From positions 17,739,725-17,803,724 of the forward strand of contig CM046866.1 in assembly GCA_025617745.1 (NCBI GenBank): DNA of 64,000 nucleotides, given 5' to 3'. The notes under the pieces were generated by a model. That model was given only the letters and a program-made list of their open reading frames with translations. It did no database searches and was not told where the DNA came from. Shown one piece after another: positions 10,237-47,416 of the stretch. A program made the position numbers and the translations under genes. Numbering within the stretch: the stretch's first letter is position 1; each line of letters starts with the position of its first letter. The DNA is from Heliocidaris erythrogramma (Eukaryota > Echinodermata > Echinoidea > Camarodonta > Echinometridae).

Positions 10237-10829
10237 CAGGTCTGGAGTTGAGCTGAAAGAGATGAAGCAATATTATTTCACAAACTTGTTCTTGTACTAA
10301 ATACTTTTCTTCTGAAAGGTACTCATGGTTTTTCGCAATAGCCAATAGCAGTATTTTCTATTTGTGTAAATATATTTTGTATTGTGTTGAAGTGAAAGTA
10401 CTATTGTTACTCCAATCATAATTTGCTCGAATGTATTCACTCGTGTGCGCCAAAACTTACCTGTAGATTTTTTTTTTAATAGTTTTACTGGGTATTTTAC
10501 TCTTCTTGCCTCAAGAAAATTTACTAGGCGATGAAAGTAAAATCAAACTAACTGAAGACCAAGTCTACATGAAATATGAAAATGTTACTCAACCAAAGTC
10601 AATTACTTAGAGTAGAACAGTATCTAGTTAGGTTTTGTCATTCTATTAAAAATCAAAGAATCTGCTGAGATAACTTTGAAATGCCCCCCCCCCCCCTGGT
10701 GCCCAGTAGGCCTTAGCAAATGCAGAAAATCACGATTCGTTAAAAACAGATCTGTAAAAGTTTGAGGAAACATCAATATAAAAAGTATTTTGTTTTTATT
10801 ATAAATATCCATTTTTTCCCATGTGTAGA

Positions 10830-11312
10830 CTGGTTTGCTAAATAGTTGCGCCACCCGCCGCGGTGCGCGGCAACTTCTTAGAGGGACAAGTGGCGTATAG
10901 CCACGTGAGATTGAGCAATAAGGGTCTGTGATGCCGTTAGATGTTCGGGGCCGCACGCGCGCTACACTGGCGGAATCAGCGGGTACACTGCCCTTGGCTG
11001 GAAGGTCTGGGTAATCTGCTGAACCTCCTACGTGATGGGGATAGGGAATTGCAATTATTTCCCTTGAACGAGATATGCTTGTCTTAAAGATTAAGCCATG
11101 CATGTCTAACTAAAAGCTCGTAGTTTGATCTCGGGCCCAGGCCTGCGGTCCGCCGTGAGGCGTGTACTGTAGTCCTGGCCTTCCTCTTTGTTTTCGCCCG
11201 GTGCCCTTAATTTGAGTGCCAGGAGAGGCCCGGAACATTTACTTTGAAAAAATTGGAGTGTTTAAAAGCAGGCCTCGCGCCTGAACAGCAGAGCATGGAG
11301 TAAATGGAAATG
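10830..11312 (+). pseudogene. Scrambled 18S rRNA pseudogene
   Basis: Three 18S segments lie in non-native order. About 10830-11072 matches the 3' major domain (CTTAGAGGGACAAGTGGCG, GAGATTGAGCAATA, CACGCGCGCTACACTGG). 11073-11110 matches the extreme 5' end (ATGCTTGTCT.AAAGATTAAG, CCATGCATGTCTAA). 11111-11312 matches the central/V4 domain (AAAAGCTCGTAGTTTGATC, GGCCCGGAAC, TTTACTTTGAAAAAATTGGA). Substitutions hit near-universal sites, for example GATGCCGTTAGATG for GATGCCCTTAGATG. It cannot fold as a normal small-subunit rRNA and is a pseudogene or a chimeric retrocopy. Confidence 0.85.
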
Positions 11313-13739: not shown

Positions 13740-15229
13740 TAGTGATGATCTTCATAGTCTTGTCCATGTCATGTGTCTCACTTGTCAAATCCTGTTATAT
13801 ATATATATATCTCTGGGGGTGGGAATTCTTTAGACATGAAATCATTCTTTGTAACATCAATGTTGGATAAATGCTGCAAAATGAATCTTGGACCCGACCC
13901 CCACCCCCATAAATACACATGTAAACAGAAATGTCAGCATTGTCCGCCATAAGGGTGAGGGGCACATGCCCCCATTTTGCCAAAAAGTGTTTTGGGCATG
14001 CTCCCCCTTTTGAAGCCGTTTTTTTTTTGTGGTCAGATAATTTGACATAATTTGTTGAACGGTATGCTGAAAAATGCCGAGGACCCCCTATTTTCTTTTT
14101 TTAGTCTGAGAAATTGAAGTGCCGGAAAAAGCTAAATGCTTAGAATTTTTTTGTCTGTTAAATGTGTCCATCCCCCTCCACTGAATCCTGCATCCGCCCA
14201 GACTATACTTTCTCTCGTCTTATTTTCACCTAAAATATTTGCTACATAAATGAATTATTTGTGATTTCTGACAAAATTCACATAAACTAGTTATCCCAAC
14301 AGTTTTAACTGTTTTATATTTTTTCCTTGTAGGTAATGAAAAGAACCATCCAAAGAACCCCTTCTTGAAGGAATCAAAATGTAGACTCCAGAGATACATG
14401 TACAAGCTACCTCATTCCATACGACTTAACATTAAGGATACTCCTGCCTGTCATCCCCTCCACTTAGCAGACTCCTATACATGTACTTCACACATCTGGG
14501 CTGGGATAAGCTTCAGTTTGTGTCCCACAAAGTTGCCATTCAGCCTGAGTTAACTTTGCTCTCCATTTTTCACATAATTGACCTTCGTTAAATTTAGTAA
14601 AAAGGTCTAAGTATGGCTTTCGGTATTGGAGTGATATTTTTAAATGTAACCTTCAACAATATCTCTTGAGACATGTATCTTTAGTGAATATAATACATTC
14701 TTGTTACATGTAACTCTATATAATTTTGCACCAGAGCATCAAAAGGATAGCTTACATGTTCATTGCTGAGGAAACTGCAATTAAAAAAAATAACTTCATT
14801 TTTGGTCATCACTGTGATTCAGGGGTCTATATATAAGAAAATCCAGCACGCAAACCTACGCGAACATTAACAAAACTAGTACGTGGACAAACTTTTGCGC
14901 ACTTTTGCTGTTGAATCAACAAAAGTGATGTCTTTAGCTAGTCTAGAGAGTAAATTGTGCAGTAAATCATTTGGTCATTGCAAGCATGTCTTATATGTCA
15001 AATAATGATTTTGTTACTTCAGATAATAGATTTGGGACCAAGAACTACTGGACCAGTTTTCATAAAAATCAGTGCATGAGGGAAAATAGTGTCTAATCCA
15101 AAACAAGTAGGGTAAGCCCTACTGGTATTGTGCGCTAAAGGGAGCCCTAGTTTAAGTAATATACACCATCCTACCAATGTTTCCCTGCTTTCTGTCAAAT
15201 TTGATAACAGAAATTCAGAAACTTTTCAG
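13740..15229. other. Non-coding, repeat-like DNA
   Basis: I see a short (TA)n run at 13796-13809 and a C-rich stretch around 13890-13980 resembling decayed repeat sequence. From about 14700 the sequence is the start of module A, repeated at 18715 and 28866 (shared 'aattttgcaccaga.catcaa'). No exon is supported. Confidence 0.5.
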
Positions 15230-16131
15230 TTATATACTTTTGCTTGATTTTTTAACATCAGGGTGAATGTACTTTAAAGCTATGTGTAACAGATATCCCC
15301 TAGATGAATGTCTGAAGAATTCTGCTACTGTCATGAAAAAGAATTCATCACTGCCCTCATACAATATTTCAAATTCTCCATCCTTTGAGCTGGTCACTCT
15401 CCCGTTGTACCAATGTTCTCTTCCATTTTCATTCCATTTATGAGCAAACGGTCTGATAACGTGGTTTATATCTTCTATTTTCATTTCCTACTTTTTTCAG
15501 TGTAAAAATTGAAAGTGTACAAGTAGGTAAACTAAAGACTGATGCAATGACACTCTTATATATACAATTTGTAGTAACAAATAATGAATTATGCAGAGAT
15601 GAACTCACATGAGCTTTCTTTAATGTACCACCTTTGATTGTGATACATGCCTCCACGAATCTGTCATGACCATGCATGCTGAACTGTTGAAGGCATCCAA
15701 AGATGTCGTGCTCTTCCTTGATGCCCCGAAGAGCTTGAAATTTGAATGCCTTCAGAGATGGCTTGTCAGACAAGAGTTCCTCCACGATTTTGAAACGGCA
15801 GTTAGAAAGAGATGCCAATTTCATTTGCATCCTCTTTGCATCCATTGCACTTTGCTGAATTTCAGTGAGATGCAAAATGAAACAAAAAGTATGCATTTAT
15901 GAAAGAAAAGGTTTTGTTTTCTGTATGTGCACAACTTTTATGCTTCAGTGAGGAAAACAAAGATGAGTCGATAGGATAAGTTATTAAATTATAGTTACCT
16001 CTATAGAACATCCATGTTCTTTCAGGTGCAAGGAAATTATCTTTTGGAATAAATTGCATCGTTGATTGTTTGTAAATGCAATCACAGAGACCACAGCAGC
16101 TGTGCGGGTCATTGTCCTCTCCTGGTTTGAC
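15230..16131 (-). CDS. Module A copy 1: three terminal exons, Tudor-like C-terminus
   Basis: Exons 16131-15999, 15854-15609 and 15487-15230 (stop TAA) on the minus strand have AG/GT borders and joining phases (first enters with one base, then phase 0 and 0). The first encodes SNQERTMTRTAAVVSVIAFT then NNQRCNLFQKIISLHLKEHG, a block reminiscent of the start of DUF6589-type mobile proteins. The second is helical (SDKPSLKAFKFQALRGIKEE). The last has HWYNGRVTSSKDGEFEILYE followed by GSDEFFFMTVAEFF, a small beta-barrel pattern like Tudor/chromo-barrel domains. This is the best copy of three; copies 2 and 3 are broken. The 5' exons are separated by the A/B junction near 16552, so the gene is truncated. 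Family assignment is inference. Confidence 0.55.
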
Positions 16132-16386
16132 CTACAAAAGGGAGACAAGAAATTTAAATACACATCTACATATGCTTTTCTGAAATGATCATGTTCATGT
16201 TTTTTTTTTAATGTATCTTCTGCACATGTCCGTTCCATGCAAATGATCTTGTTATTGAATATAAACATTTAACCTAGTATCATAATTATGTATATACAAA
16301 TGTTGTGAGATAACAAAAGGCGTTCAAAGGTCACTGTTATTTATCACCAGATCACTATTGTATCAATATTACAATGTTCATTTTTT

Positions 16387-16424
16387 TATGCCCCCACCCA
16401 CCAAAGGTGGTGCCGGAGGCATGG
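16387..16424. repeat. GCCTCC hairpin fragment in module A copy 1
   Basis: ATGCCCCCACCCACCAAAGG followed by TGGTGCCGGAGGCATGG is the hairpin end of the 8441-9034 repeat family, and is present at the same place in the module A copies at 20475 and 29753. It therefore inserted before module A was duplicated. Confidence 0.65.
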
Positions 16425-16816
16425 TTTTTGGGTTGTCAGTCCATCCGGCCATGTTATATTTAGAATCTGGTTTTGTCTGCTAATCACTGTCGCTGTCACT
16501 TGTAACCCCTGGCTTTTGGTATTCATCCTCCAATACCTCTATCAGTGACTGATTCTCTCCACACACAGAATACAACAATATAATCAAGACAAAAGCAAAG
16601 GCTCATTATTTAGTCTCGGCAGAAAAATATGTAATGAAGAAAATACTTATCTAGGCCTATTATGGTTATGCTTTAAATTCCATATTTCCTGCATCACTGG
16701 TTTAGCTGGTCATCAAACAAGAGAAGGATACTAACATGATTTTGGTTAACATATTGATTTCAAGTGGACGTGGGGCTGAGTTGTTCAGAAACACAAGTGG
16801 TCTTAGAAACTCTTAC

Positions 16817-17149
16817 CTTTGACTTGGGCGTGAACTTATAACTGCTCGGGAAACGCAAGACATTTGTCAAAATTGCCCTCGTTCCCACTGCCAATCCCAA
16901 TAACTTTGATTTCAACTTGTCGTCATAACTGTTGACGTAACACGGCATAACAACATTAACACCGCTACTGCTAGTGGTTGCACCACCGCTGGAACAGGCA
17001 TGCTCTCCATCTCCTCCAAGTCCAAGGGCATCACTTGTTTCATTTTCACCACCTTCAAGAACCATTCCTACAATATGACTCCTATCATCCGTTCTTCGCC
17101 GATCATCGAATGCCTCCACAACGATTACCTTAATAGATGAAAACACCAT
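16817..17149 (-). CDS. Module B copy 1: first exon of unknown protein
   Basis: ATG at 17149 opens MVFSSIKVIVVEAFDDRRRT; the exon runs 111 codons to KFTPKSK and a good GTAAGA donor after 16817. The middle is acidic/Ser/Gly-rich (GENETSDALGLGGDGEHA), and the end is SKLLGLAVGTRAILTNVLRF. The same exon occurs at 27095-27396 (frameshifted) and 42435-42764. In this copy the downstream exons are absent, replaced by module A near 16552. The product is not recognised. Confidence 0.45.
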
Positions 17150-17744
17150 TATGGTCAAAAGACGGGTCTATCCCATGACGCAAAATCCTCGTTTGGAATA
17201 CCTATACCCCGTTTTCAAATCTGCCTCTCCTCTCTTCGCCCAGCAGGAGGGCATAAAGGCAAAGCTTTTAATCACCTGTTTATTGACACTGGCCTAATCT
17301 CGCCAGCAGCTCATGGCCACAGGGAGACTTGAATAGGAGCAGGGAATTGTGTGGGTTTTGGAATGGGCTGTGTGTACTGTATTAGTGGGCTTGGATGCCC
17401 CCTTCTGATCAAAGAACCTTTTGTCAGAAATTTATGATTAATAAATCAACGACGAAAGCAAAATGATTCATATTTCTTTATCCATTAGGTCTTTTTAATT
17501 ATTCTTGTTCATATATAGCTAATTTTTATGGGCAGTGGAACCCCTTTTATCTTTTACCTGATCATTTAGATAATTAAAATAGGCCTATATAGAAGTAGAT
17601 TAATAATGAAATCATTATTGGAAGAATTTGCAGCTGCATTTTTCAGAATTATAAAGAGAAATATACATGTAAATAAGATCTAAAAGCTTTAGATCTAGAA
17701 CTATGTTAAATTTATAATTTATAAATGAAGAGTTTCCATTGAAA

Positions 17745-17779
17745 ACTTTCTTGACATTATGGTGGCTCTGAAAAGAGCC
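17745..17779 (-). terminator. Histone-type mRNA 3' end: stem-loop plus downstream element
   Basis: On the minus strand, 27 bases after the Tc1 transposase stop, GGCTCTTTTCAGAGCC (17779-17764) forms a perfect 6-bp stem with a TTTC loop in the context CAAAA-stem-ACCA. This is the consensus replication-dependent histone stem-loop. CAAGAAAGT follows 10 bases later (17753-17745), matching the purine-rich histone downstream element (CAAGAAAGA) bound by U7 snRNP. Histone mRNAs are cut between these two elements and are not polyadenylated. Preserved in all three module B copies. Confidence 0.8.
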
Positions 17780-17805
17780 TTTTGGTGGCTATAATTTGTA
17801 TAAGT

Positions 17806-18712
17806 TCAAAAGCCTGTTGCTGCCCCCTCCTTCTGGATGACGACAGGTGCAACAGTTGATACATGGTCGATGTATCTGTTGCATAGGCGCTTGGTCATCA
17901 CGGTACTCCAGAAGTCTCGAATTCCTTGCTTCAGCTCGGGAACGGTGGTAGGTCTCCGGTTTTTGAGGAGCCATCTTTTCAGCTGGTTCCACACCAATTC
18001 GATGGGGTTCAAGTCTGGACTTTCAGGCGGCGTCCTCCACCAATTGATGCCCAGCCGCCGGAAGCATTCCTGGGCCTTCTTGGAAGTATGCTTTGGGTCG
18101 TTGTCTTGCATAAAACGATGACCCGAAGGATACTTCCCGTCCAGAAATGGCTTCAGCGCCTTGGTGACTATTTCTGAGACATAGAACTCGGCGTCCATAA
18201 TCCCAGTGAAGATGACTATAGGGGTAGCTCCTTGCCATGAGATACCAGCCCAGACGTGAAGTTTCGCTGGATGTTTGGGCCTTGGCTTCAGTGTGCGTGG
18301 CCGCCCGACCTGTTTGAAGCACAGGACAGGATTTTGGTGGAGCTGGACCGTGCACTCATCAGTGAAGATGACGTTCTCGAAGCTATCCTTGGTGCGAATT
18401 AGTTCCCTGCAGTGGTCAAGGCGCTTTAACTTATTCGCATCTCTGATCATCTGGCTCGGTTTGGGGGAACACTGAACCCACCCCAGACTGCGCCGAAACT
18501 TCTTAATGGAGGACAGAGATACATCCTCCAATCCAGTGTTGATGCAGAACTTTCGCAACATCTGCTGCCGACGTCTCATTTTTTCGATACATCTCGTCGA
18601 TTAGCGGCCGAAAAAGATCTAGCTTGCTTCCTCGCGGAGTGGGTCGCTGTGGGGCAATCTTTCCAGTCTCTCTGTAGATCCTGATGAATCTTGAAAGAGA
18701 CTGGCGGCTCAC
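17806..18712 (-). pseudogene. Tc1-type transposase, copy 1 (frameshifted, 5'-truncated)
   Basis: N-terminal helix-turn-helix part: SRQSLSRFIRIYRETGKIAP. Catalytic domain: NVIFTDECTVQLHQ (first D), HRFMQDNDPKHTS (second D) and SPDLNPIELVWNQLK (E). Exactly 34 residues separate the second D and the E, the DD34E spacing of Tc1 transposases. It ends ...QKEGAATGF then TGA at 17806. A frameshift lies near 18535 (after VLHQH), and the frame is truncated at 18714 where module A copy 2 begins. DNA cut-and-paste enzyme, now inactive. The start present in copy 3 is missing here. Confidence 0.85.
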
Positions 18713-18714
18713 AG

Positions 18715-20645
18715 CGATGTAATTCTATATAATTTTGCACCAGAACATCAAAAGGATAGTGGTTACATGTTCATTGTCGAGGAAACTGCAATTAAAAAAA
18801 CTTCATTTTTGGTCATCACTGTGATTCAGGGCTCTCTACATAATAAGAAAATCCAGCACGCAAACCTACGCGAACATTAACAAAACTAGTACGTGGACAG
18901 ACTTTTGCGCTCTTTTGCTGTTGAATCAACAAAAGTGATGTCTTTAGCTAGTCTAGAGAGTAAATTGTGCACAGTCAATCATTTGGTCATTGCAAGCATG
19001 TCTTTTTCTGGTTAGGTTTCATCATTTCTTTCAGAAAATAATGATTTTGTTACTTCAGATAATAGATAGCTTCAGATAATCTATAGATAATAGATTTGGG
19101 ACCAAGAATTACTGGACCAGTTTTCATAAATCAATAATGCATGAGGGAAAATAGTGTATAATCCAAAACAAGTAGGGTAAGCCCTGCTGGTGTTCTGCGC
19201 TAAAGAGAGCCCTAGTTTAAGTAGTATACACCATCCTACCAATGTTTCCCTGCTTTCTGTCAATAAATTTGATAACAGAAATTCAGAAACTTTTCAGTTA
19301 TATACTTTTGCTTGATTTTCTAAACATCAGGGTGAATGTACTTTGAAGCTATGTATAACAGATATCCCCTAGATGAATGTCTGAAGAATTCTGCTACTGT
19401 CATGAAAAAGAATTAATCGCTGCCCTCGTACAATATTTGAAATTCTCCATCCTTTGAGCTGGTCACTCTCCCATTGTACCAATGTTCTCTTCCATTTTCA
19501 TCCCATTTATGAGCAAACGGTCCGATAACGTGGTTTATATCTTCTATTTTCATTTCCTACTTTTTTCACTGTAAAAATTGAAAGTGTACAAGTAGGTAAA
19601 CTAAAGTCTGATGCAACGACACTCGTTTATATATACAATTTGTGGTAACGAATAATGAATTATGCAGAGATGAACTCACATGAGCTTTCTTTAATGTACC
19701 ACCTTTGATTGTGATACATGCCTCCACGAATCTGTCATGACCATGCCTGCTGAACTGTTGAAGGCATCCAAAGAATTCCTGCTCTTCCTTGATGCCCTGA
19801 AGAGCTTGAAATTTGAATGCCTTCAGAGATGGCTTGTCAGACACGAGTTCCTCCACGATTTTGAAACGGCGGTTGGAAAGAGATGCCAATTTCATTTGCA
19901 TCCTCTTTGCATTTCAGTGAGATGTATGCAAAGTATGCATTTATGAAAGAAAAGGTTTTGTTTTCTGTATGTGCACAACTTTTATGCTTCAGTGAGGAAA
20001 ACAAAGATGAGTCGATAGGATAAGTTATTAAATTATAGTTACCTCTATAGAACATCCATGTTCTTTCAGGTGCAAGGAAATTATCTTTTGGAATAAATTG
20101 CATCGTTGATTATTTGTAAATGCAATTACAGAGACCACAGCAGCTGTGCGGGTCATTGTCCTCTCCTGGTTTGACCTACAAAAAGAAGACAAGAAAATTT
20201 TAATACACATCTACATATGAAAGGATGATGTTTATAAGAATAGGAAAGAAGTTGATACATTTTGTCCATGTTTTTTTTAGTGTATCTTCTGCACATGTCC
20301 GTCCCATGCAAATGATCTTGTAATTGAATATAAACATTTAACTTAGTATCATAATTATGTATATACAAATGTTGTGAGATAACAAAAGGCGTTCAAAGGT
20401 CACTTATTTATCACCAGATCCCTATTGTATAAACATTACAATGTTCTTGGAATTCCATCAATTTTCATTTTTTTATGCCCCCGCCCACCAAAGGTGGTGC
20501 CGGAGGCATTATGCTTTTTGGTTGTCCGGCCATCTGGCCATGTTATATTTAGAATCTGGTTTTGTCTGCTAATCACTGTCGCTGTCACTTGTAACCACTG
20601 GCTTTTGGTATTCATCCTCCAATACCTCTATCGGTGACTGATTCT
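18715..20645. repeat. Module A, copy 2
   Basis: Repeats 14706-16552 almost base for base ('aattttgcaccagaacatca', 'cagcacgcaaacctacgcga'). It starts directly at the truncated 5' end of the Tc1 gene, the same junction as at 28866. Contains the broken three-exon gene and a GCCTCC fragment at 20475-20510. Confidence 0.8.
19298..20175 (-). pseudogene. Module A copy 2: broken Tudor-like gene exons
   Basis: Counterparts of the copy 1 exons: 20175-20043 (SNQERTMTRT block, intact), about 19911-19680 (MQMKLASLSNRRFKIVEELV), and 19556-19298. A small deletion removes the acceptor and first codons of the middle exon, and GAT-TAA replaces GAT-GAA in the last exon, placing a stop inside GSD(E)FFFM. Confidence 0.65.
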
Positions 20646-23894: not shown

Positions 23895-25317
23895 GAGGAA
23901 AATGCCTCCAGAAGTTCTGGATGATATTTTCGGCAAAATCCATTATTAAAGAAGGGGTGTGTATATTAGTAAAAGGTTATAAATTGTTGATCCTCGGTTA
24001 TCTCTATAAGAAATATAAAACTAAACATTTTACAAGCAATGTAATACATGATACAAAGTGTAATCAGTAATAGTTGCATGAATCTATATAATTGTAGGTG
24101 ATAATTACATATTAATTAATAATACACCCCTATGTGGTAGTGACCCTTCCCTCAGTCTGTACAAAGACTTGGGGGGGGGGGGTCGGTACAGTACAATACT
24201 AAAAGAGGAATTTATTTTAACATATTTAAGTTATTGATATTCTAATTATGTGGCACCATAAGAGGGGCTACACCCACATCTGTGATTTCCTCATCCTCGG
24301 GATGGACATAGATCTCTGCTGGAATGGAAACGGTCATGCCTCCTTATCTTTGTCTTGTCCATACAATTGTAACACTCAAATATGAATGCATAAACAACAT
24401 TTATTGTAGAACATAAACATCGAAGTGGAACAGTTTTATATATGAGAACATATGTTGAACATATAGTACATATATATGTTAGCGATAAAGGCTTGGTATG
24501 AAGACTTGGTACTCCCCTATCGAGGTCCACATGGGCAGGAGCACAGCACGGGAAGAGGAAGAAGTCTAAAGACTTAAAAGAACCAGAGAACATAATTTTC
24601 TCAGGGCTTGTACTAATAATGTAATGTTAACAGTAAGACATTCAACTTGAACACCAGAAACAGTTTTAATTAGAAATATTGCCTACATTGTACAAGGGGC
24701 ATGTATTCAAAGCAAGAGAATATGCAAAGAATAAGAGCAGAATGCAGTAAAAACTATATTTACAGGATCTCCATTGCACTATCTTTTATGTCTGGGTGAC
24801 ATAACCATAGGGACTGATTTGCAGATCAATACATTTTATACTCGGCGATGGTGAAAAAGGACCATTAATTATACATCTGTTAATATCTCTCCTGGCTATT
24901 AAAACTGTCCGATTTACAGCAAATCAATTTTCCAATATGCCACTTAATGATTGCGTACTCGTGTGGCCAAGTCCTGGGAGCTCTAATGCCTTCCGTGGGT
25001 GGCGGAAATCAGCTCTTGATAAGCACTGATCACGTCGTGCTCCTGATCTAAGGATTCGGCGCAACTTTGGTAGGGTCAGGTCAACCCTGCTTTCTAGATA
25101 CCCTTCAATGGCACCCCACGGCTGACAGGACCACACCATCCACCTCTCAATCGTCGTTCTTTGTGATACCATCTTCAATCTGACAGGTTAGACTCTGGTA
25201 GCTCAGTTTATCATCTTGTCCTGGGTTTCCCATCTTGTGAAAGTTAAGTCTGTAACAGACTACAATTTCATTTGAAGTTAACAAAGAAACTTCTTTAGGG
25301 TTGACTTATACTGGGAA

Positions 25318-25940
25318 GATTATTCCTCATCCTGAAGCGCCCCCAAATGAATTGAGCACGAGTTTACTGAGTGAACTCAACACTATTAAAAATTTACTGA
25401 GGTTCAACAGAATTGGTGATATCCCTCAAGGTAGCGGACTGTAACCTCATCAGTCTTACACCACTCGGGCTATCTAGAAGCCTCTTGTTTGATTTTGAGG
25501 AAAGTGTTAATGTACCCATTCATTAACACTTGTGCGTTGATACTCGGATCGTACAGACTTTGCTTTGGAAAATGCCAAACGGGTTCAATTTCTACCATGT
25601 ACTGTGGAGCATTCCCTTGTGTGTGCTGTAACATGGGAAACATCAACTTGCCATCCATATTAACTGGAACAGGTAAGACTGGGTAGAGCAGATTTTGGGG
25701 TGGGAGTACTTTGCATCTTACAAACCTGTAGTATGCAGAGATATTTTTGAAAGTGACGTAATGACCTCTGGATGACCTAATGGATAGGAGGGTACAAGGA
25801 TGCAAAAATGAGTATCATTCCCCCCCCCCCTTCCATTTGTGCGCTCCGTTAAGTCTTCTTGGGTGTTCAGATGTACAGGATGATTGGCAAACTTGAAATC
25901 AGAATCAGACAGTGTCGCTTTCAGATTCTCTCCACTCACA
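25318..25940 (-). pseudogene. Family-B DNA polymerase (protein-primed type), decayed, copy 1
   Basis: Reading down the minus strand: SYPLGHPEVIT (about 25770), a frameshift, then FKNISAYYRFVRCKVLPPQN, LLYPVLPV, GKLMFPM, EPVWHFPK and YINTFLKIKQEAS, then after a stop WCKTDEV and KLVLNSF-GG. These are the ordered blocks of DNA_pol_B_2 polymerases (YPxGHPE, VLPPxxLxxPVLP, FLKIKQEASGWP, and motif B KxxxNSxxG). Such polymerases copy DNA in Polinton-type elements and linear plasmids. Several frameshifts and stops show that it is dead; the exonuclease domain and the YxDTD motif were not found. Confidence 0.7.
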
Positions 25941-26006
25941 CTCCAAACTGATCATGCATTCGGGGAAGATGGATTTGATATAGTGACCTGGCATCCTCTT
26001 TCTAAA

Positions 26007-26614
26007 TTAATTTATAAGCAGAGTTCCACTGAAATTTTCAGATACATAAGTAAGTTCCTCTGGTGTTATCATCAGACTAGCAGTATGGGTATGATTGCAG
26101 CTGACTGGCACAGAATATTTGGCTTTAGCAGTTGAACCATTGTTGCTTCCACTCACTGCACAATGGTGAACTGCCTGGGCAGCCAGTTTCCCAAGCTCAA
26201 CAGGAATTTCCTTTAGAAGGGCCCTTTTTTCTTCTGTGTCTCCTACTTTCAAATGCATGAGAACCTCAAGAGCATCAGATGAATTCTCTTTTTGATTTCT
26301 TTTTTTTTGGAACATGGATCAATGAAAAAAGAAGGTAATATACATGTATCTACACCATTCTTTTCTAGGCACAAATCTATATACTTCCACCCATTGTGTT
26401 TTACATGACCTCCTCCGCGGATAATGTCCACAACATGCAGAAAATTTATGAAGACTTTTTCGCCTTCTGCAACAATAGGTAAAACCTTATCCCCCACCAA
26501 AATGGTACTATGAGAGTGGTTCATTTCCGGTTGAATCACATGTGGTCTCTTTTGTGCATCATGATTTAGGTCACCGGCACTCTGCCTGAACCTTAAATTT
26601 GCGACAGTTTTCAT
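26007..26614 (-). pseudogene. Unknown module D gene, 3' part, copy 1
   Basis: Two overlapping minus-strand frames form one broken protein: TVANLRFRQSAGDLNHDAQK, FINFLHVVDIIRGGGHVKHN, VDTCILPSFFIDPCSKKK, then a shift to ENSSDALEVLMHLKVGDTEE, AAQAVHHCAVSGSNNGS and MITPEELTYVSENFSG. Same in copy 2 (40478-41549). No family recognised. Confidence 0.45.
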
Positions 26615-27094
26615 GACTGAATTTTTATGGGCTTTGCCATATTTTGAGTAGTGCTCAACAGAATTACAGCATCATTTTTTAGATAACTAAATGTATAAAA
26701 ATCTAGTTCCCCATTCATTTTTGCAAAAAATGCAAAACTTTCCAGGGGTATGAATTTTGAGGATGACTAAGTGCTGCCCTCTCATACTCTACTGCTGTAC
26801 TATTGCCACCAACAACAAACAAATGCACATTTTCTCTCTCCACACACAGAATACAACAATATAATCAAGACAAAAGCAAAGGCTCATTTAGTCTTGGCAG
26901 AAAAATATGTAATGAACAAAATATTTATCTAGGCCTATTATGGTTATGCTTTAAATTCCATATTTCCTGCATCACTGGTTTAGCTGGTCATCAAACAAGA
27001 GAAGGATACTAACATGATTTTGGTTAACATATTGATTTCAAGTGGACGTGGGGCTGAGTTGTTCAGAAACACAAGTGGTCTTAGAAACTCTTAC

Positions 27095-27396
27095 CTTTGA
27101 CTTGGGCGTGAACTTATAACTGCTCGGGAAACGCAAGACATTTGTCAAAATTGCCCTCGTTCCCACTGCCAATCCCAATAACTTTGATTTCAACTTGTCA
27201 TAACTGTCATAACGCTACTGCTAGTGGTTGCACCACCGCTGGAACAGGCATGCTCTCCATCTCCAAGTCCAAGGGCATCACTTGTTTCATTTTCACCACC
27301 TTCAAGAACCATTCCTACAATATGACTCCCATCATCCGTTCTTCGCCGATCATCGAATGCCTCCACGACGATTACCTTAATAGATGACAACACCAT
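27095..27396 (-). pseudogene. Module B copy 2: first exon, frameshifted
   Basis: Copy of 16817-17149. The donor GTAAGA is intact, but a deletion near 27200-27210 removes the HVVMPCYVNSYDD region and shifts the frame. Confidence 0.55.
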
Positions 27397-27901
27397 TATG
27401 GTCAAAAGACGGGTCTATCCCATGACGCAAAATCCTCGTTTGGAATACCTATACCCCGTTTTCGAATCTGCCTCTCCTCTCTTCGCCCAGCAGGAGGGCA
27501 TAAAGGCAAAGCTTTTAATCACCCGTTTATTGACACTGGCCTAATCTTGCCAGCAGCTCATGGCCACAGGGAGACTTGAATAGGAGCAGGGAATTGTGTG
27601 GGTCAACGACGAAAGCAAAATGATTCATATTTCTTTATCCATTAGGTCTTTTTAATTATTCTGGTTCATATATAGCTAATTTTTATGGGCAGTGGAACCC
27701 CTTTTATCTTTTACCTGATCATTTAGATAATTAAAATAGGCCTATATAGAAGTAGATTAATAATGAAATCATTATTGGAAGAATTTGCAGCTGCATTTTT
27801 CAGAATTATAAAGAGAAATATACATGTAAATAAGATCTAAAAGCTTTAGATCTAGAACTATGTTAAATTTATAATTTATAAATGAAGAGTTTCCATTGAA
27901 A

Positions 27902-27936
27902 ACTTTCTTGACATTATGGTGGCTCTGAAAAGAGCC
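27902..27936 (-). terminator. Histone-type 3' end signal, copy 2
   Basis: Stem-loop GGCTCTTTTCAGAGCC at 27936-27921 and CAAGAAAGT at 27910-27902 on the minus strand, unchanged from copy 1 and again 26 bases after the transposase stop. Confidence 0.8.
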
Positions 27937-27962
27937 TTTTGGTGGCTATAAATTGTATAAGT

Positions 27963-28862
27963 TCAAAAGCCTGTTGCTGCCCCCTCCTTCTGGATGACAA
28001 CAGTTGATACATGGTCGATGTATCTGTTGCATAGGCGCTTGGTCATCACGGTACTCCAGAAGTCTCAAATTCCTTGCTTCAGCTCGGGAACGGTGGTAGG
28101 TCTCCGGTTTTTGAGGAGCCATCTTTTCAGCTGGTTCCACACCAATTCGATGGGGTTCAAGTCTGGACTTTCAGGCGGCGTCCTCCACCAATTGATGTCC
28201 AGCCGCCGGAAGCATTCCTGGGCCTTCTTGGAAGTATGCTTTGGGTCGTTGTCTTGCATAAAACGATGACCCGAAGGATACTTCCCGTCCAGAAATGGCT
28301 TCAGCGCCTTGGTGACTATTTCTGAGACATAGAACTCGGCGTCCATAATCCCAGTGAAGATGACTATAGGGGTAGCTCCTTGCCGTGAGATACCAGCCCA
28401 GACGTGAAGTTTCGCTGGATGTTTGGGCCTTGGCTTCAGTGTGCGTGGCCGCCCGACCTGTTTGAAGCACAGGACAGGATTTTGGTGGAGCTGGACCGTG
28501 CACTCATCGGTGAAGATGACGTTCTCGAAGCTATCCTTGGTGCGAATTAGTTCCCTGCAGTGGTCAAGGCGCTTTAACTTATTCGCATCTCGGATCATCT
28601 GGCTCGGTTTGGGGGAACACTGAACCCACCCCAGACTGCGCCGAAACTTCTTAATGGAGGACAGAGATACATCCTCCAACCCGTGTTGATGCAGAACTTT
28701 CGCAACATCTGCTGCCGACGTCTCATCATTTTTTCGATACATCTCGTCGATTAGCGGCCGAAAAAGATCTAGCTTGCTTCCTCGCGGAGTGGGTCGCTGT
28801 GGGGCAATCCTTCCAGTCTCTCTGTAGATCCTGATGAATCTTGAAAGAGACTGGCGGCTCAC
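27963..28862 (-). pseudogene. Tc1-type transposase, copy 2 (stop near C-terminus)
   Basis: Open from 28862 (VSRQSLSRFIRIYRETGRIA) to a TGA at 28065, 265 codons, including all DD34E catalytic blocks. The stop lies in KQGI(R)DFWST, where CGA of copy 1 is TGA, a CpG-type transition. The remaining C-terminus follows, with a short deletion, to TGA at 27963. The 5' end is lost at the same base as in copy 1. Confidence 0.85.
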
Positions 28863-28865
28863 AGC

Positions 28866-29930
28866 GATGTAATTCTATATAATTTTGCACCAGAACATCA
28901 AAAGGATAGTGGTTACATGTTCATTGTCGAGGAAACTGCAATTAAAAAAACTTCATTTTTGGTCATCACTGTGATTCAGGGCTCTCTACATAATAAGAAA
29001 ATCCAGCACGCAAACCTACGCGAACATTAACAAAACTAGTACGTGGACAGACATTTTGCATCTCTTCCTTGATGCCCTGAAGAGCTTGAAATTTGAATGC
29101 CTTCAGAGATGGCTTGTCAGACACGAGTTCCTCCACGATTTTGAAACGGCTTCATTTGCATCCTCTTTGCATCCATTGCACTTTTCTGAATTTCAGTGAG
29201 ATGCAAAATGAAACAAAGTATGCATTTATGAAAGAAAAGGTTTTGTTTTCTTTATGTGCACAACTTTTATGCTTCAGTGAGGAAAACAAAGATGAGTCGA
29301 TAGGATAAGTTATTAAATTATAGTTACCTCTATAGAACATCCATGTTCTTTCAGGTGCAAGGAAATTATCTTTTGGAATAAATTGCATCGTTGATTATTT
29401 GTAAATGCAATTACAGAGACCACAGCAGCTGTGCAGGTCATTGTCCTCTCCTGGTTTGACCTACAAAAGGAAGAGAAGAAAATTTTAATACACATCTACA
29501 TATGCTTTTCTGAAATGATCATGTTCATAAGAATAGAATTGTCCATGTTTTTTTTAATGTATCTTCTGCACATGTCCGTTCCATGCAAATGATCTTGTTA
29601 TTGAATATAAACATTTAACCTAGTATCATAATTATGTATATACAAATGTTGTGAGATAACAAAAGGCGTTCAAAGGTCACGGTTATTTATCACCAGATCA
29701 CTATTGTACGAATATTACAATGTTCTTGGAATTCCATCAATTTTCATTTTTTTATGCCCCCACCCACCAAAGGTGGTGCCGGAGGCATGTTTTTGGGTTG
29801 TCCGTCCATTCGGCCATGTTATATTTAGAATCTGGTTTTGTCTGCTAATCACTGTCGCTGTCACTTGTAACCACTGGCTTTTGGTATTCATCCTCCAATA
29901 CCTCTATCAGTGACTGATTCTGGTTCAGAG
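28866..29930. repeat. Module A, copy 3 (internally deleted)
   Basis: Begins at the same Tc1/A junction as 18715. About 880 bp is missing between 29053 and the sequence matching 19785. Retains the first of the three exons (29460-29328) with both splice sites; middle exon partial, last exon absent. A GCCTCC fragment lies at 29753-29788. Confidence 0.75.
29328..29460 (-). pseudogene. Module A copy 3: surviving SNQERTM exon
   Basis: Encodes the same 44 residues as 15999-16131 with one change (TMTCTAAV for TMTRTAAV) and intact AG and GT borders, but its downstream exons are deleted. Confidence 0.55.
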
Positions 29931-37395: not shown

Positions 37396-38239
37396 TCACA
37401 GGTCGTACAACCTGCGGGTGTTTGCCGTGGTGATGGCAAGGACATGGGCTAGGGACTCCCCGCGGATCTGTGCCACTAGCTGCGCAACTTCACCCACGTA
37501 AGCTGGAGTGGAGCATTTAACGGCGTGATCTGGGCGCATGTATGGAGCGTCCGTCTCCAGGAGCAACCGGTGAGCTGGAACAGCTCGGAGGGCTTCCTGG
37601 TTGGTGCATCCTGCGCGATCAAGCACGATGGTGAATCCAAAGTAACATCTTGGGAATGCTTCCGTCCATGCTCGGATCTGGGTGACTGACGTCATACAAC
37701 AGTGAACATGCATCCGCGTGTCCCGCTCGCAATACTTCTGAAGAACCTCGCGACAGCGCCGTTGAGGGGCTTCATCAGAAGGGTCGCTGCGGCTCCCGCG
37801 TAGGTGAAGGATTAGAACCTTCCCTTGGACCTTCATCCGAAGAATCCTCTCCATGAGGCTGATCTGTTTGGGCCATCTGAGGTCCGGCACAGAACAATCC
37901 ACTCCAAGCTCGCCGACGCCAATGACCCTGGGATCAATCTGCAGCTGTTCTAGTTCGTAAAGCTGACGATCCGTCACGGAATCAGCGTGCTTGGGGTGTA
38001 TTCCGGCCGCAAATCTCCAGCCTGGATCTTCGGGAAAGACAATCCGCGGGAAGCGCGCCGGGTCGCAAAAATTGAGGACCCCTCCCACAAGAGTAACGGG
38101 AACGAGAGGCTTGCGCCCCGGGAACTGCTTCAGAGCCTGGCTCAAACCAGACACTCGTAGACGACCTTCGAGTCTGTCTAGGTGGAAATGAGTGTCGATG
38201 GCTGATGGAGAATAGACAAGGCTAAGTTTACTTTGCTGG
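37396..38239 (-). CDS. TatD-like metal-dependent deoxyribonuclease, intact, intronless
   Basis: Open frame from after a TAA at 38240-38242 to TAG at 37396. The metal site is complete: DTHFHLDR (HxH) at about 38190, VIGVGELGVD (E), LILHLRGS (H), MHVHCC (H) and LLLETDAPYM (D), plus GIHPKHA. Length about 265-280 residues is normal for TatD hydrolases. The first ATG (38154) lies after the HxH motif, so translation must begin upstream (no ATG before it; a near-cognate start or a 5' exon joined at the AG near 38222 are options). TatD enzymes are Mg-dependent 3'-5' DNases. Base composition is GC-rich unlike the surroundings, and it sits in the GC-rich block split by the 5-kb element, suggesting a mobile-element cargo gene. 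Confidence 0.75.
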
Positions 38240-38264
38240 CGTTAGGTTTTACTGCTGTTACGTC

Positions 38265-38669: not shown

Positions 38670-41115
38670 AGATCTCTGCTGGAATGGAAATGGTCATGCC
38701 TCCTTATCTTTGTCGTCTTGTCCATACAGTTGTTACACTCTTAGAATTAGTCATTTGTAGAAGATATCGTAGCGTGGATGATGGTGACTGTTAACTAAGA
38801 TCACGACACTATGAAGGAGAGTCCATTCACAATGTGGAAATATGAATGTATAAACATTTATTGTAGAACATAAACATCGAAGTGGAACAGTTTTATATGA
38901 GAACATATGTTGAACATATAGTACATATATGTTAGCGATAAAGGCTTGGTATGAAGACTTGGTACTCCCCTATCGAGGCCCACATGGGCAGGAGCACAGC
39001 ACGGAGGAAGAAGTCAAGACTTGAAAGAACCTGAGAACATAATTTTCTCGGTGTTTGTACTAATGCAATGTTAACAGTAAGACATTTAACTTGAACACCA
39101 GTAACAGTTTTAATTAGAAATATTGCCTACATTATTTTGTACAAGAGGCATGTATTCAAAGCAAGAGAATATGCAAAGAATAAGAGCAGAATGCAGTAAA
39201 AACAATATTTACAGGATCTCCATTGCACTATCTATATGTCTGGGTGACATAACCATAGGGACTGATTTGCAGATCAATACATTTTATACTCGGCAATGCT
39301 GAATAAGGACCATTAATTATACATCTGTTAATATCTCTCCTGGCTATTAAAACTGTCTGATTTACAGCAAATCAATTTTCCAATGTGCCACTTAATGATT
39401 ACGTACTCGTGTGGCCAAGTCCTGGGAGCTCTTATGCCTTCCGTGGGTGGCGGAAATCAGCTCTTGATAAGCACTGATCACGTCGTGCTCCTGATCTAAG
39501 GATTCGGCGCAACTTTGGTAGGGTCAGGTCAACCCTGCTTTCTAGGTACCCTTCAATGGCACCCCACGGCTGACAGGACCACACCATCCACCTCTCAATC
39601 GTCGTTCTTTGTGATACCATCTTCAATCTGACAGGTTAGACTCTGGTAGCTCAGTTTATCATCTTGTCCTGGGTTTCCCATCTTGTGAAAGTTAAGTCTG
39701 TAACAGACTACAATTTCATTTGAAGTTAACAAAGAAACTTCTTTAGGGTTGACTTATACTGGGAAGATTATTCCTCATCCTGAAGCGCCCCCAAATGAAT
39801 TGAGCACGAGTTTACTGAGTGAACTCAACACTATTAAAAATTTACTGAGGTTCAACAGAATTGGTGATATCCCTCAAGGTAGCGGACTGTAACCTGATCA
39901 GTCTTACACCACTCGGGCTATCTAGAAGCCTATTGTTTGATTTTGAGGAAAGTGTTAATGTACCCATTCATTAACACTTGTGCGTTGATACTCGGATCGT
40001 ACAGACTTTGCTTTGGAAAATGCCAAACGGGTTCAATTTCTACCATGTACTGTGGAGCATTCCCTTGTGTGTGCTGTAACATGGGAAACATCAACTTGCC
40101 ATCCATATTAACTGGAACAGGTAAGACTGGGTAGAGCAGATTTTGGGGTGGGAGTACTTTGCATCTTACAAACCTGTAGTATGCAGAGATATTTTTGAAA
40201 GTGACGTAATGACCTCTGGATGACCTAATGGATAGGAGGGTACAAGGATGCAAAAATGAGTATCATTCCCCCCCCCCCCCTCCCATTTGTTATACATGAT
40301 TTGGCATTTGTGTGCTCCGGTAAGTCTTCTTGGGCATTCAGATGTACAGGATGATTGGCAAACTTGAAATCAGAATCAGACAGTGTCGCTTTCAGATTCT
40401 CTCCACTCACACTCCAAACTGATCATGCATTCGGGCAAGATGGATTTGATATAGTGACCTGGCATCCTCTTTCCAAATTAATTTATAAGCCGAGTTCCTC
40501 TGAAATTTTCAGATACATAAATAAGTTCCTCTGGTGTTATCAGACTAGCAGTATGGGTATGATTGCAGCTGACTGGCACAGAATATTTGGCTTTAGCAGT
40601 TGAACCATTGTTGCTTCCACTCACTGCACAATGGTGAACTGCCTGGGCAGCCAGTTTCCCAAGCTCAACAGGAATTTCCTTTAGAAGGGCCCTTTTTTCT
40701 TCTGTGTCTCCTACTTTTAAATGCATGAGAAGAACCTCAAGAGCATCAACAGATGAATTCTCTTTTCGATTTCTTTTTTTTGGGAACATGGATCAATGAA
40801 AAAAGAAGGTAATATATCTACACCATTCTTTTCTAGGCACAAATCTATTGTTTTACATGACCTCCTCCACGGATAATGTCCACAACATGCAGAAAATTTA
40901 TGAAGACTTTTTCGCCTTCTGCAACAATAGGTAAAACCTTATCCCCCACCAAAATGGTACTATGAGAGTGGTTCATTTCCGGTTGAATCACATGTGGTCT
41001 CTTTTGTGCATCATGATTTAGGTCACCGGCACTCAGCCTGAACCTTAAATTTGCGACAGTTTTCATGACTGAATTTTTATGGGCTTTGCCATATTTTGAG
41101 TAGTGCTTCAACAGA
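38638..41115. repeat. Module D, copy 2
   Basis: Counterpart of 24277-26690 with few differences (small indels, for example an extra block at 40286-40310). Together with modules B at 26833 and 42171 it shows that D+B was duplicated as one segment. Confidence 0.8.
39768..40410 (-). pseudogene. Family-B DNA polymerase remnant, copy 2
   Basis: Same blocks and same frameshifts as 25318-25940: KCVLPPQN-type block (CKVLPPQNLLYPVLPV), GKLMFPM, NGYINTFLKIKQ, then stop. Shared lesions show that the gene was already dead before the segment was duplicated. Confidence 0.7.
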
Positions 41116-42764
41116 ATTACAAGAGAATGCCGCAGTATCCATTTTCTTCTACTTTTCCCTTGCACTAAAAATTCTGTATGACATTTCTGTGGGTGTTTTG
41201 CCAACACTGTATCAATCTTTCTGTATCCTGAACATGTTCTTATACCACTAGCTCTCAGCACTTCACATGACAAGTAAATATGGTCATTATACTTTGTATA
41301 TGCAACATCCTTCCCTGAAATATTCACAAAGTCCATCGTGCTGATGTCTTTCAATAAATTCAATTGAATACGTCTATCTTGCTCTCTGGAAAACTGAGGT
41401 ATGCAATTCATCATTTCTTTGTTGGCTACTAGTAGCACTGTGTGAAGGCAAACTTTCAGGTTCGTCAGAAAAACAAAGCTTTGATTTTGAGGTAAAAGAA
41501 GTAGGGTTTTCAGTATCAGAGAAAACACCCACGTTCTTTTCACTCCCATGACCTGGGAAAGATTTGTGTCGTTTATTTGGGGTACGCCAAATATTAGAAT
41601 TACCTGCGGTCAAGATTGGGAATTTGGCTGCTTTCCGAAAGCGATGCAGATCCCCGCGCCTCTGCAATAGACACAATCTCGGGTCTTACAAACCTTTCAA
41701 AAACTCCTTCATCCACAGGAAACTTACACACATTCTGGATAACCTACATGTAAAAAAAGTAAAACCAAATCTATGCCCGACTATAAACTCATCATAAATT
41801 CAACATTCAGTACAAAATTCTACAATATGAAAAAGAAATTACAAATCATATACATGTAACAAGTCATGAACCACATAACACGTCCCAAATACCCATAAAA
41901 AATTCAAATTTTTAATATGGGGGTATAACTTCTGTTCATTCTAAATTACATTTCGTATTAAAATGAAATTAAATTTAGCATGTGTGGCAACCAGAAACGG
42001 CAATCATTTTTAGATAACTAAATGTATAAAAATCTAGTTCCCCTTTCATTTTTGCGAAAAATTATCCTATTTTCCAAGGGGTATGAATTTTGAGGACGAC
42101 TGTAAGTGCTGCCCTCTCATACTCTACTGCTGTACTATTGCCACCAACAACAAACAAATGCACGTTTTCTCTCTCCACACACAGAGAATACAACAATATA
42201 ATCAAGACAAAAGCAAAGGCTCATTATTTAGTCTCAGCAGAAAAATATGTAATGAAGAAAATATTTATCTAGGCCTATTGTTATGGTTATGCTTTAAATT
42301 CCATATTTCCTGCATCACTGGTTTAGCTGGTCATCAAACAGAAGGATACTAACATGATTTTGGTTAACATATTGATTTCAAGTGGACGTGGGGCTGAGTT
42401 GTTCAGAAACACGAGTGGTCTTAGAAACTCTAACCTTTGACTTGGGCGTGAACTTATAACTGCTCGGGAAACGCAAGACATTTGTCAAAATTGCCCTCGT
42501 TCCCACTGCCAATCCCAATAACTTTGATTTCAACTTGTCGTCATAACTGTTGACGTAACACGGCATAACAACATGATTAACACCGCTACTGCTAGTGGTT
42601 GCACCACCACTGGAACAGGCATGCTCTCCATCTCCTCCAAGGGCATCACTTGTTTCATTTTCACCACCTTCAAGAACCATTCCTACAATATGACTCCTAT
42701 CATCCGTTCTTCGCCGATCATCGAAGGCCTCCACAACGATTACCTTAATAGATGAAAACACCAT
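40478..42764 (-). pseudogene. Unknown multi-exon module D/B gene, most complete copy
   Basis: Exon 1 is 42764-42435 (MVFSSIKVIVVEAF... to KFTPKSK, donor GTTAGA instead of GTAAGA). A second exon fits in phase at 41743-41604 (VIQNVCKFPVDEGVFERFVR then PEIVSIAEARGSASLS, donor GTAATT). Long open frames follow: a Ser/Pro-rich stretch at 41374-41676 (PNKRHKSFPGHGSEKNVGVF), then 41549-40845 (QLNLLKDISTMDFVNISGKD, SLVILLKHYSKYGKAHKNSV, FINFLHVVDIIRGGGHVK), and 40789-40478 (ENSSVDALEVLLMHLKVGDT, ELGKLAAQAVHHCAVSG). Frame changes between them imply unseen introns or lesions. Function unknown. Confidence 0.4.
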
Positions 42765-44254
42765 TATGGTCAAAAGACGGGTCTATCCCATGACGCAAAA
42801 TCCTCGTTTGGAATACCTATACCCCGTTTTCGAATCTGCCTCTCCTCTCTTCGCCCAGCAGGAGGGCATAAAGGCAAAGCTTTTAATCACCTGTTTATTG
42901 ACACTGGCCTAATCTCGCCTGCAGCTCATGGCCACAGGGAGACTTGAATAGGAGCAGGGAATTGTGTGGGTTTTGGAATGGGCTGTGTGTACATACGTGT
43001 GTGTGTGTGTACTGTATCAGTGGGCCTGGATGCCCCCTTCTCATCAAAGAACCTTTTGTCAGAAATTTATGATTAATAAATCAACGACGAAAGCAAAATG
43101 ATTCATATTTCTTTATCCATTAGGTCTTTTTAATTATTCTTGTTCATATATAGCTAATTTTTATGGGCAGTGGAACCCCTTTTATCTTTCACCTGATCAT
43201 TTAGATAATTAAAATAGGCCTATATAGAAGTAGATTAATAATGAAATCATTACTGGAAGAATTTGCAGCTGCATTTTTCAGAATTATAAAGAGAAATATA
43301 CATGTAAATAAGATCTAAAAGCTTTAGATCTAGAACTGTTAAATTTATAATTTATAAATGAAGAGTTTCCATTGAAAACTTTCTTGACATTATGGTGGCT
43401 CTGAAAAGAGCCTTTTGGTGGCTATAATTTGTATAAGTTCAAAAGCCTGTTGCTGCCCCCTCCTTCTGGATGACAACAGGTGCAACAGTTGATACATGGT
43501 TGATGTATCTGTTGCATAGGCGCTTGGTCATCACGGTACTCCAGAAGTCTTGAATTCCTTGCTTCAGCTCGGGAACGGTAGTAGGTCTCCGGTTATTGTG
43601 GAGCAATCTTTTCAGCTGGTTCCACACCAATTCGATGGGGTTCAAGTCTGGACTTTCGGGCGGCGTCCTCCACCAATTGATGTCCAGCCGCCGGAAGCAT
43701 TCCTGGGCCTTCTTGTATGCTTCGGGTTGTTGTCTTGCATAAAACGATGACCCGAAGGATACTTCCCGTCCAGAAATGGCTTCAGCGCCTTGGTGACTAT
43801 TTCTGAGACATAGACATAGGGGTAGCTCCTTGCCGTGAGATACCAGCCCAGACGTGAAGTTTCGCTGGATGTTTGGGCCTTGGCTTCAGTGTGCGTGGCC
43901 GCCCGACCTGTTTGAAGCACAGGACAGGATTTTGGTGGAGCTGGACCGTGCACTCATCGGTGAAGATGACGTTCTCGAAGCTATCCTTGGTGCGAATTAG
44001 TTCCCTGCAGTGGTCCACGCGATACTGCGCCGAAACTTCTTAATGGAGGACAGAGATACATCCTCCAACCCGTGTTGATGCAGAACTTTCGCAACATCTG
44101 CTGCCGACGTCTCATCATTTTTTCGATACATCTCGTCGATTAGCGGCCGAAAAAGATCTAGCTTGCTTCCTCACGGAGTGGGTCGCTGTGGGGCAATCCT
44201 TCCAGTCTCTCTGTAGATCCTGATGAATCTTGAAAGAGACTGGCGGCTCACAGC
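42171..44254. repeat. Module B, copy 3
   Basis: Counterpart of 16553-18714 and 26833-28865. Unlike those, the Tc1 gene here continues through its true N-terminus and promoter, so this copy preserves the state before the B/A junction formed. A (GT)n patch lies at 42999-43010. Confidence 0.8.
43378..43412 (-). terminator. Histone-type 3' end signal, copy 3
   Basis: Stem-loop GGCTCTTTTCAGAGCC at 43412-43397 and CAAGAAAGT at 43386-43378 on the minus strand, identical to copies 1 and 2. Confidence 0.8.
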
Positions 44255-44356
44255 GATGTCGTCCTTAAGAAGCGCCGCCCGTATCGCCGACACGTGCATC
44301 CCGTCAGTCGACATCTTAGCGACTCGCTGTCGATTTGGTAGTGACATTCGCGTCAT
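43439..44356 (-). pseudogene. Tc1-type transposase, copy 3 (full 5' end, several lesions)
   Basis: The N-terminus is complete: MTRMSLPNRQRVAKMSTDGM, SAIRAALLKDDIAVSRQSLS, a paired-type helix-turn-helix. TGA replaces CGA after PQRPTP (44171), a deletion removes the NKLKRL region near 44020, another removes TGIMDAEF near 43815, and a short one lies near 43715. Ends with the same QKEGAATGF and TGA at 43439. Confidence 0.8.
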
Positions 44357-44440
44357 CTTAATTGCAAGGATCAATGAATAGTTATGGTGCTAGGGCAAGG
44401 TCGACGAATTGAAGAACGAATCCCAACGTTTGCTCACGAT

Positions 44441-44447
44441 TTATATA
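44441..44447 (-). promoter_or_regulatory. TATA box upstream of Tc1 copy 3
   Basis: TATATAA on the minus strand, about 85 bp before the ATG, in the context GGACCGGAGTGAACC-TATATAAATCG. A near TATA box with a compact 5' leader resembles histone gene promoters, matching the histone-type 3' end; the resemblance is suggestive only. Confidence 0.4.
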
Positions 44448-45074
44448 GGTTCACTCCGGTCCGGCTGCATTGCATCCAAATAATTGAAAAGCAGTCGGGG
44501 CGTCGAAGTAACTAAATGAAGGGATGTGTATCAACATAAAAACATATCGGCAGAAACTAAAGTTTAATAAAGAAATATACACACACACACATATACATGT
44601 ACATATATAACGTTTTTGAACCGAAAATTCAGGAAGAAAATGAAAGGTAGTAAAGGAGTGTTGGAAAAAGAGAAATGTAAACAATAATAAATAAAATAAG
44701 ACGAGTGTTGTGAAGAAAGTAATTTACGACACCGCGATTTCTAGACCATGTGATGCGTATTCATGTTTTAAGTATACAGTAAGAATCATTTTGAATTGCT
44801 TGTACATATTGTAAAAAAAATATACATTAAACGTTTTTGAACAAACCATACAGGAAGAAAACGAGTTAAAACGAAACGTAGTAAATGAATGGAAGAAGGG
44901 CATTTTGGCTGTAGAAGTCATTTTATCCATCCAAATCTAAACTTGTTGACCTTGTATCGTTCTCGGGAAATCGTGTCAATCTCGGGGAATATCAGATGCA
45001 ACTACAGTAGGGTAGATTATCAAATGGCGATAATGAACGCTGAAATTGTTCTTAACGACTACAAACTAGGATTT

Positions 45075-46209: not shown

Positions 46210-47416
46210 TAAACGGTTACTATCATTACTACTTTCCTCTGATTCTGAGTCACTATTATGAACAGTGGTAAGAGTCTCTCGTACAACTTCAGTACTTGAA
46301 TCAGGATCAGGATCACCTACTGTCTCTAGTATGACGTTTCAAACAAAAAAAATGTAATTCGACTGTAGTGTTGCACTGCTGTCTATCAAGTCACAATTTT
46401 CGACTATCTCGTCGATTACCGCTAATGGTAAGGCACTAGCAATGTCTGTTCCCGAGTACATGGAACCATGAATATGATGGAGATTTTCCTCTCGTAAAGA
46501 GATAAGCTCAGCTCGAAGTGTATCACGCATTCCTGGTGTAACATTTCTACATTTCCGACCAATTGGATTTTCTTTTACATTAAAATTGAATGTCCCATAG
46601 TCTGGATTTGAACATGTGTCAGTATCTCTGCATGTACATTTCTTTGAACACACATCACAGCATAGGTGTGGTTTGTCTATTGGCCTTGGCTGCACACTAA
46701 ATGGCGCCATCAATTTTACCCTACGACACTCAACATCATTGTCTAAGTAGTCTTTCATGCCCTCACTCATCTTGTTTTTACGACATCCATGATATTTTAT
46801 AAGAACAGCAACACATGCTTCTCCTCCACGACCTCCACGTCCACTCTCCTGGACATAATCATCAATGTCTTCTGACGGTCCGAAATGAAATATTCTTGTC
46901 AGATTTTGACAATTGATGCCCATTCCAAATGCAATTGTGCAGAACAGAACCTTCACAACACCATTTGGATCATCAAAAGACTTCAGAATGTCATCTTTAA
47001 CTCCTTCATGCGTTGTTGAGTGATACATAGCGAAGTACTTAACTGGTTCAGATTCAAGATTTTCTTTAAAGAGACCATATAGCGAGCGGCATTGGCCATG
47101 GGTCCTGCAAAATATAATTGTTCTAGGTGTGTTGTCCTTTAGTTCCTTTAGTTCATCGATAATGAAGGAGAAGATTGCTGGGTCCTCTTTCGCAGATGTG
47201 TTGGCAACTGAATATCTGATGTTGGGGCGATCTGGAGATTCCGTAATTATTGCAGGGGATGTGAGCGAGAGACTTTCGATCAACCGAGACCTCAAGGCTA
47301 AGGAAGATGTTGCAGTGAGGCTGAGAGTTGGAACAGACCGGGGGATGAGAGAACGAAGTTCTGAGAGGCGGCCATAACACTGACGAAAGGCTTTCAGCTT
47401 GTGTGAATCCTGACCC
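46210..47416 (-). CDS. RecQ-like DNA helicase, large C-terminal exon
   Basis: Exon begins after TTCCTATTCAG at 47417. It reads GQDSHKLKAFRQCYGRLSEL, SVPTLSLTAT (motif III), PRTIIFCRTH (motif IV), KVLFCTIAFGMGINCQNLTR (motif V) and YVQESGRGGRGGEACVAVL (motif VI, arginine finger), then the zinc-binding-like CCDVCSKKCTC and a tail VIDEIVENCDLIDSS. TGA at 46339-46341 ends the frame, but the same frame continues with NVILETVGDPDPDSSTEVVR and an acidic DSESEESSNDSN stretch to 46210, so the stop may be a lesion or an extra exon follows. RecQ enzymes unwind DNA 3'-5'. The N-terminal motifs I-II lie upstream and were not found. The tail is repeated in remnants at 20.9, 30.5 and 45.2 kb, indicating a mobile or multicopy gene. 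Confidence 0.7.

Follow-up and report, generated by a model that had tools for sequence, protein, structure and literature searches.

Introduction

Replication-dependent histone mRNAs are considered almost the only transcripts with a histone 3′ end. In the established pathway the stem is bound by SLBP and the downstream element by the U7 snRNP, and the pre-mRNA is cut between the two, as outlined in passages of PMC7026596 and PMC1924863. According to a passage of a 2009 Drosophila paper (PMC2781718), nothing had ever implicated SLBP in directly regulating non-histone genes; taken with this statement, a working case outside the histone genes would be notable. Among the matches listed by a literature search that covered mainly journals outside subscription, we recognised no described transposase or element with a histone stem-loop 3′ end, and the same literature returned nothing on a sea urchin histone with CAAGAAAGA. 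Here we describe a locus in a 64 kb stretch of Heliocidaris erythrogramma DNA (the window) at which the stop codon of a predicted transposase gene is followed by what is, judged from its sequence, a genuine and unusual histone 3′-processing signal.

A predicted histone-type 3′ end after the transposase stop codon

A scan of the window for GGCTCTTTTCAGAGCC returned three exact sites, all on the minus strand (17779-17764, 27936-27921 and 43412-43397), and no additional site with up to two mismatches. At this tolerance the expectation in the shuffled window was 0.03 sites, and at least three sites occurred in none of 100 dinucleotide shuffles; even one exact stem-loop placed here exceeds what chance would give. 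All three sites were recognised as histone-type stem-loops by the Rfam model RF00032, each scoring 38.1 bits (gathering score 34) and spanning positions 1-46 of the 46 in the model (E 1.4e-7 for the whole search), which bears out the claim of an earlier sequence-only reading that a perfect histone stem-loop follows the stop codon of a Tc1 DD34E transposase. That reading had placed the stem about 27 nt from the stop; the closeness stands, but the measured distance is 26 nt in all three transposase copies (A, B and C). The purine-rich element that it had located 10 nt after the stem was also found, as CAAGAAAGT beginning 10 nt past the stem in every copy. The window contains six CAAGAAAG sites over both strands (4.7e-5 per base), three of which are those associated with the stem-loops.

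Minimum-energy folding gave the 6-pair stem as the sole structure, and the fold energy of the 69-nt 3′ stretch was not unusual (z -1.31, with 17 of 200 shuffles equally stable). Pairing of the downstream element with sea urchin and human U7 5′ ends, neither of them the species' own U7, did not exceed that of shuffles, 556 of 1000 reaching the score for the sea urchin end and 979 of 1000 for the human end. Past the stem of copy C, the first ATTAAA lies at 262 nt and the first AATAAA at 497 nt. Three stem patterns had 0, 0 and 1 matches in viral contigs and are thus rare there. As a separate observation, AGCCACCA flanks the stem-loop on both sides (17791-17764, with the same placement in copies B and C), one occurrence preceding the stem and the other running from the end of the 3′ arm into the ACCA flank.

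Table 1. Position, strand and supporting evidence of features in the 64 kb window.
Feature	Position	Strand	Evidence and remarks
Histone 3′ UTR stem-loop with flanks and purine-rich downstream element, copy A	17740..17784	-	RF00032, 38.1 bits
Histone 3′ UTR stem-loop with downstream element, copy B	27897..27941	-	RF00032, 38.1 bits
Histone 3′ UTR stem-loop with downstream element, copy C	43373..43417	-	RF00032, 38.1 bits; CAAGAAAGT at 43386-43378
Predicted transposase, copy A	17806..18720	-	DDE_3 1.9e-19; 5′-truncated at unit X junction near 18717; 1-nt frameshift, 3-nt deletion
Predicted transposase, copy B	27963..28870	-	DDE_3 6.1e-20; same 5′ truncation as A; premature stop near C-terminus; 9-nt in-frame deletion
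Predicted transposase, copy C	43439..44356	-	DDE_3 1.3e-9; native ATG and stop; internal premature stop; deletions of ~61, 31 and 4 nt
TATATAAAT (TATA box, TATATAA)	44439..44447	-	Starts 91 nt before copy C ATG
Diverged eukaryotic small-subunit rRNA fragment	10966-11069	+	RF01960, 62 bits
Weaker RF01960 piece	10802-10933	+	19.5 bits, below gathering score
Open frame, 215 aa	12336-12983	-	HECT-like by eye; no Pfam match at E 0.01
TatD-like nuclease frame	37396-38241	-	PF01026, 7e-38; top-ranking named relatives are from sea urchins (Diadema setosum 47%, Lytechinus pictus 38%)
RecQ-like helicase C-terminal frame	46339-47478	-	Helicase_C 1.7e-15; RecQ_Zn_bind below cut-off; upstream of copy C, same strand

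The coding region and its native ends

The predicted products of the three coding regions are Tc1/IS630-type transposases. Pfam DDE_3 was matched in every copy, and the NCBIfam IS630 model scored 83.6 for copy A and 93.3 for copy B, both below its cut-off of 100; a match of copy B to HTH_Tnp_Tc3_2 reached 22.5 bits, under the cut-off of 31.5. The sole solved relative was the Sleeping Beauty chain 5cr4_A (5.7e-16 with copy B). An alignment of 20 sequences including copy B contained the DD34E triad as invariant D123, D208 and E243, with 34 residues separating the last two catalytic positions when counted by eye, and inspection by eye showed the catalytic D, D and E retained in both A and B. A protein search with copy B gave 1443 proteins at E <= 0.001 out of 1701 candidates; identities among the best 120 of these were 43-53%, and there was no close relative among the matches listed.

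The ends of the gene could be placed in copy C, where tblastn aligned residue 1 of the full-length relatives P0007 and P0013 at 44356, the position of the copy C ATG, and where both alignments reach their last residue immediately before the stop codon. Since the coding ends of copy C are those of full-length relatives, the signal sits at the position of a 3′ UTR; the stretch that precedes the stem is a transposase coding region with native start and end and zero histone codons. The close TATA box that the sequence-only reading had reported for the copy at 43.4-44.4 kb is present (Table 1), and transcription of copy C probably starts near 44421. None of the CCAAT, octamer and cap motifs, in their consensus forms, occurs in the 400 nt that precede the copy C ATG, and with these other histone promoter motifs missing, specific likeness to a histone gene is confined to the 3′ end.

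Duplication and decay of the locus

Pieces of copies A (16554-18908), B (26835-29059) and C (42170-44259) are 92.5-98.4% identical to one another by BLAST, gaps counted, and the similarity includes more than 1 kb of DNA 3′ of the transposase. Neighbouring sequence is also repeated (24378-26668 versus 38838-41121 at 95%, and 14708-16556 versus 18717-20645 at 89%). The three stem-loop copies are segmental duplicates of one locus and represent one event. All three copies described earlier are present, but as segmental duplicates and not as independent insertions, with A and B 5′-truncated and all of them broken; lying as they do in duplicated segments, they do not replicate the observation independently.

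Substitutions alone amount to ~0.3-3% in the aligned parts, two short stretches excepted. The 18 nt between stop and stem have 0 or 1 change, and the 45-nt motif has no change in any pair of copies; as most other parts change by only 0.3-3%, this gives no ground for claiming that the motif is especially conserved. At first, second and third codon positions we counted 3, 2 and 2 substitutions between A and B, 5, 5 and 9 between A and C, and 5, 3 and 7 between B and C, a spread across all codon positions as in decay. Disabling lesions are present in every copy. None was seen to be common to C and A/B, in a comparison that gives no view of the parts deleted in C or of the 5′ part that A and B lack; from this absence of a common lesion, duplication of the segment probably involved a still intact ancestral gene.

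In copies A and B the truncated transposase is abutted by a further unit (unit X), at 18717 and 28867-28870, respectively. The junction carries ACAT, which is common to both of its parents and suggests an illegitimate deletion. Of 68 candidates for the unit X peptide, none matched at E 0.001.

Terminal repeats and relatives

From 741 bp upstream to 1227 bp downstream of copy C, no terminal inverted repeats flanked by TA were accepted, in keeping with the statement in the sequence-only reading that none flank the gene. The best inverted pair around copy C (42988-43011 with 44578-44603) had a score of 31, which was reached by 7 of 200 shuffles. It would span ~1.6 kb, a usual length for a Tc1 element. 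We rejected this pair as terminal inverted repeats because it consists of a TG microsatellite, which is shorter at the corresponding site in copy A, where the outer TGTACATACG part is missing. A mobile gene at this locus is thus putative, as terminal inverted repeats were not accepted and the copies trace to one duplicated locus. Transposase peptide patterns matched 3 and 11 stretches in viral contigs and 44 in prokaryote genome contigs, and no relative was among them.

Origin of the histone-type 3′ end

The explanation that we favour, and consider somewhat better than evenly balanced, is that a Tc1/IS630-class transposase gene acquired a histone 3′-processing signal, consisting of the stem-loop and a U7-type element, and that the locus was then duplicated and its copies decayed. 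From the observed motif, spacing, native coding ends, duplication and decay we infer processing, S-phase expression and capture. The signal would most likely have been acquired through capture of histone 3′ DNA. The SLBP/U7 machinery would then have cleaved the pre-mRNA of the intact gene between stem and downstream element, leaving a short poly(A)-minus transposase mRNA whose abundance would have been limited to the time of DNA replication. The locus and its surroundings would have been duplicated afterwards, followed by decay of the copies. SLBP/U7 processing of the transposase pre-mRNA and replication-coupled expression of the transposase are both suggested by the motif.

A second account is that of an accident at a single locus, in which a transposase came to lie beside a dispersed histone 3′ end (an orphon fragment) in a functionless join, with the three copies as its duplicates. 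Histone orphons are known in sea urchins, one of them with a transposon inside. Descent of all three copies from one duplicated lineage is consistent with such an accident, as are the lack of accepted terminal repeats and the rearrangement junctions at the locus, for example the truncation of A and B at 18717/28870 with shared ACAT. Against it, the signal lies no more than 26 nt from the native stop, in the correct orientation and with the correct spacing to the downstream element, and the window yielded no remnant of histone coding sequence: tblastn of H1 (part), H2A, H2B, H3 and H4 against the 64 kb gave a best E of 7.7, over 11 residues of H1. Such precision in the layout of stop, stem and element would not be expected of a random join, and we consider the accident possible but doubtful. 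The same five queries leave unsupported the suggestion of an ordinary histone gene cluster in the flanks as the place where the transposase inserted; the TATA box and short leader of copy C do resemble a histone gene, but the promoter motifs absent upstream of its ATG count against this origin as well, and we regard it as very improbable.

The gene might instead have been an immobile, Tc1-derived host gene that was selected intact until recently and given histone-like regulation for a role in replicating cells. Such domestication would fit the lack of accepted terminal repeats around copy C, a gene probably intact until its duplication and now changed by ~0.3-3% in substitutions, and the lack of a close family among the best 120 of 1443 proteins, although the protein database may lack Heliocidaris erythrogramma. 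It is opposed by the broken state of all copies here, by the changes on all three codon positions and by the catalytic D, D and E, which A and B retain as an active transposase would; we judge it unlikely.

Beyond acquisition of the signal by this one gene, which remains our preferred reading, it is conceivable that a whole Tc1-like echinoid lineage adopted histone 3′ processing. Transposase mRNA would then be made without poly(A) and only during DNA replication, as in cleavage embryos or germ cells, and transposition would be tied to S phase; we put this forward tentatively and think it rather doubtful. If true, SLBP/U7 would have in the transposase gene one of its rare clients outside the histones, and the arrangement would give a DNA transposon a direct, testable means of timing its activity to replication, during which cut-and-paste movement can raise copy number.

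Comparison with known systems

The locus shares with Tc1/mariner transposons (IS630-Tc1-mariner, DD34E) a DDE_3 transposase, the 34-residue last spacing and a relative in Sleeping Beauty, but unlike them it has no accepted terminal inverted repeats and carries a histone-type 3′ end. It differs from replication-dependent histone genes (SLBP/U7; RF00032) in that the coding region is that of a predicted transposase and not of a histone. In common with these genes it has an intronless coding region and a short leader, and it resembles them in its short 3′ UTR with a stem-loop and flanks, ACCA and a purine-rich downstream element.
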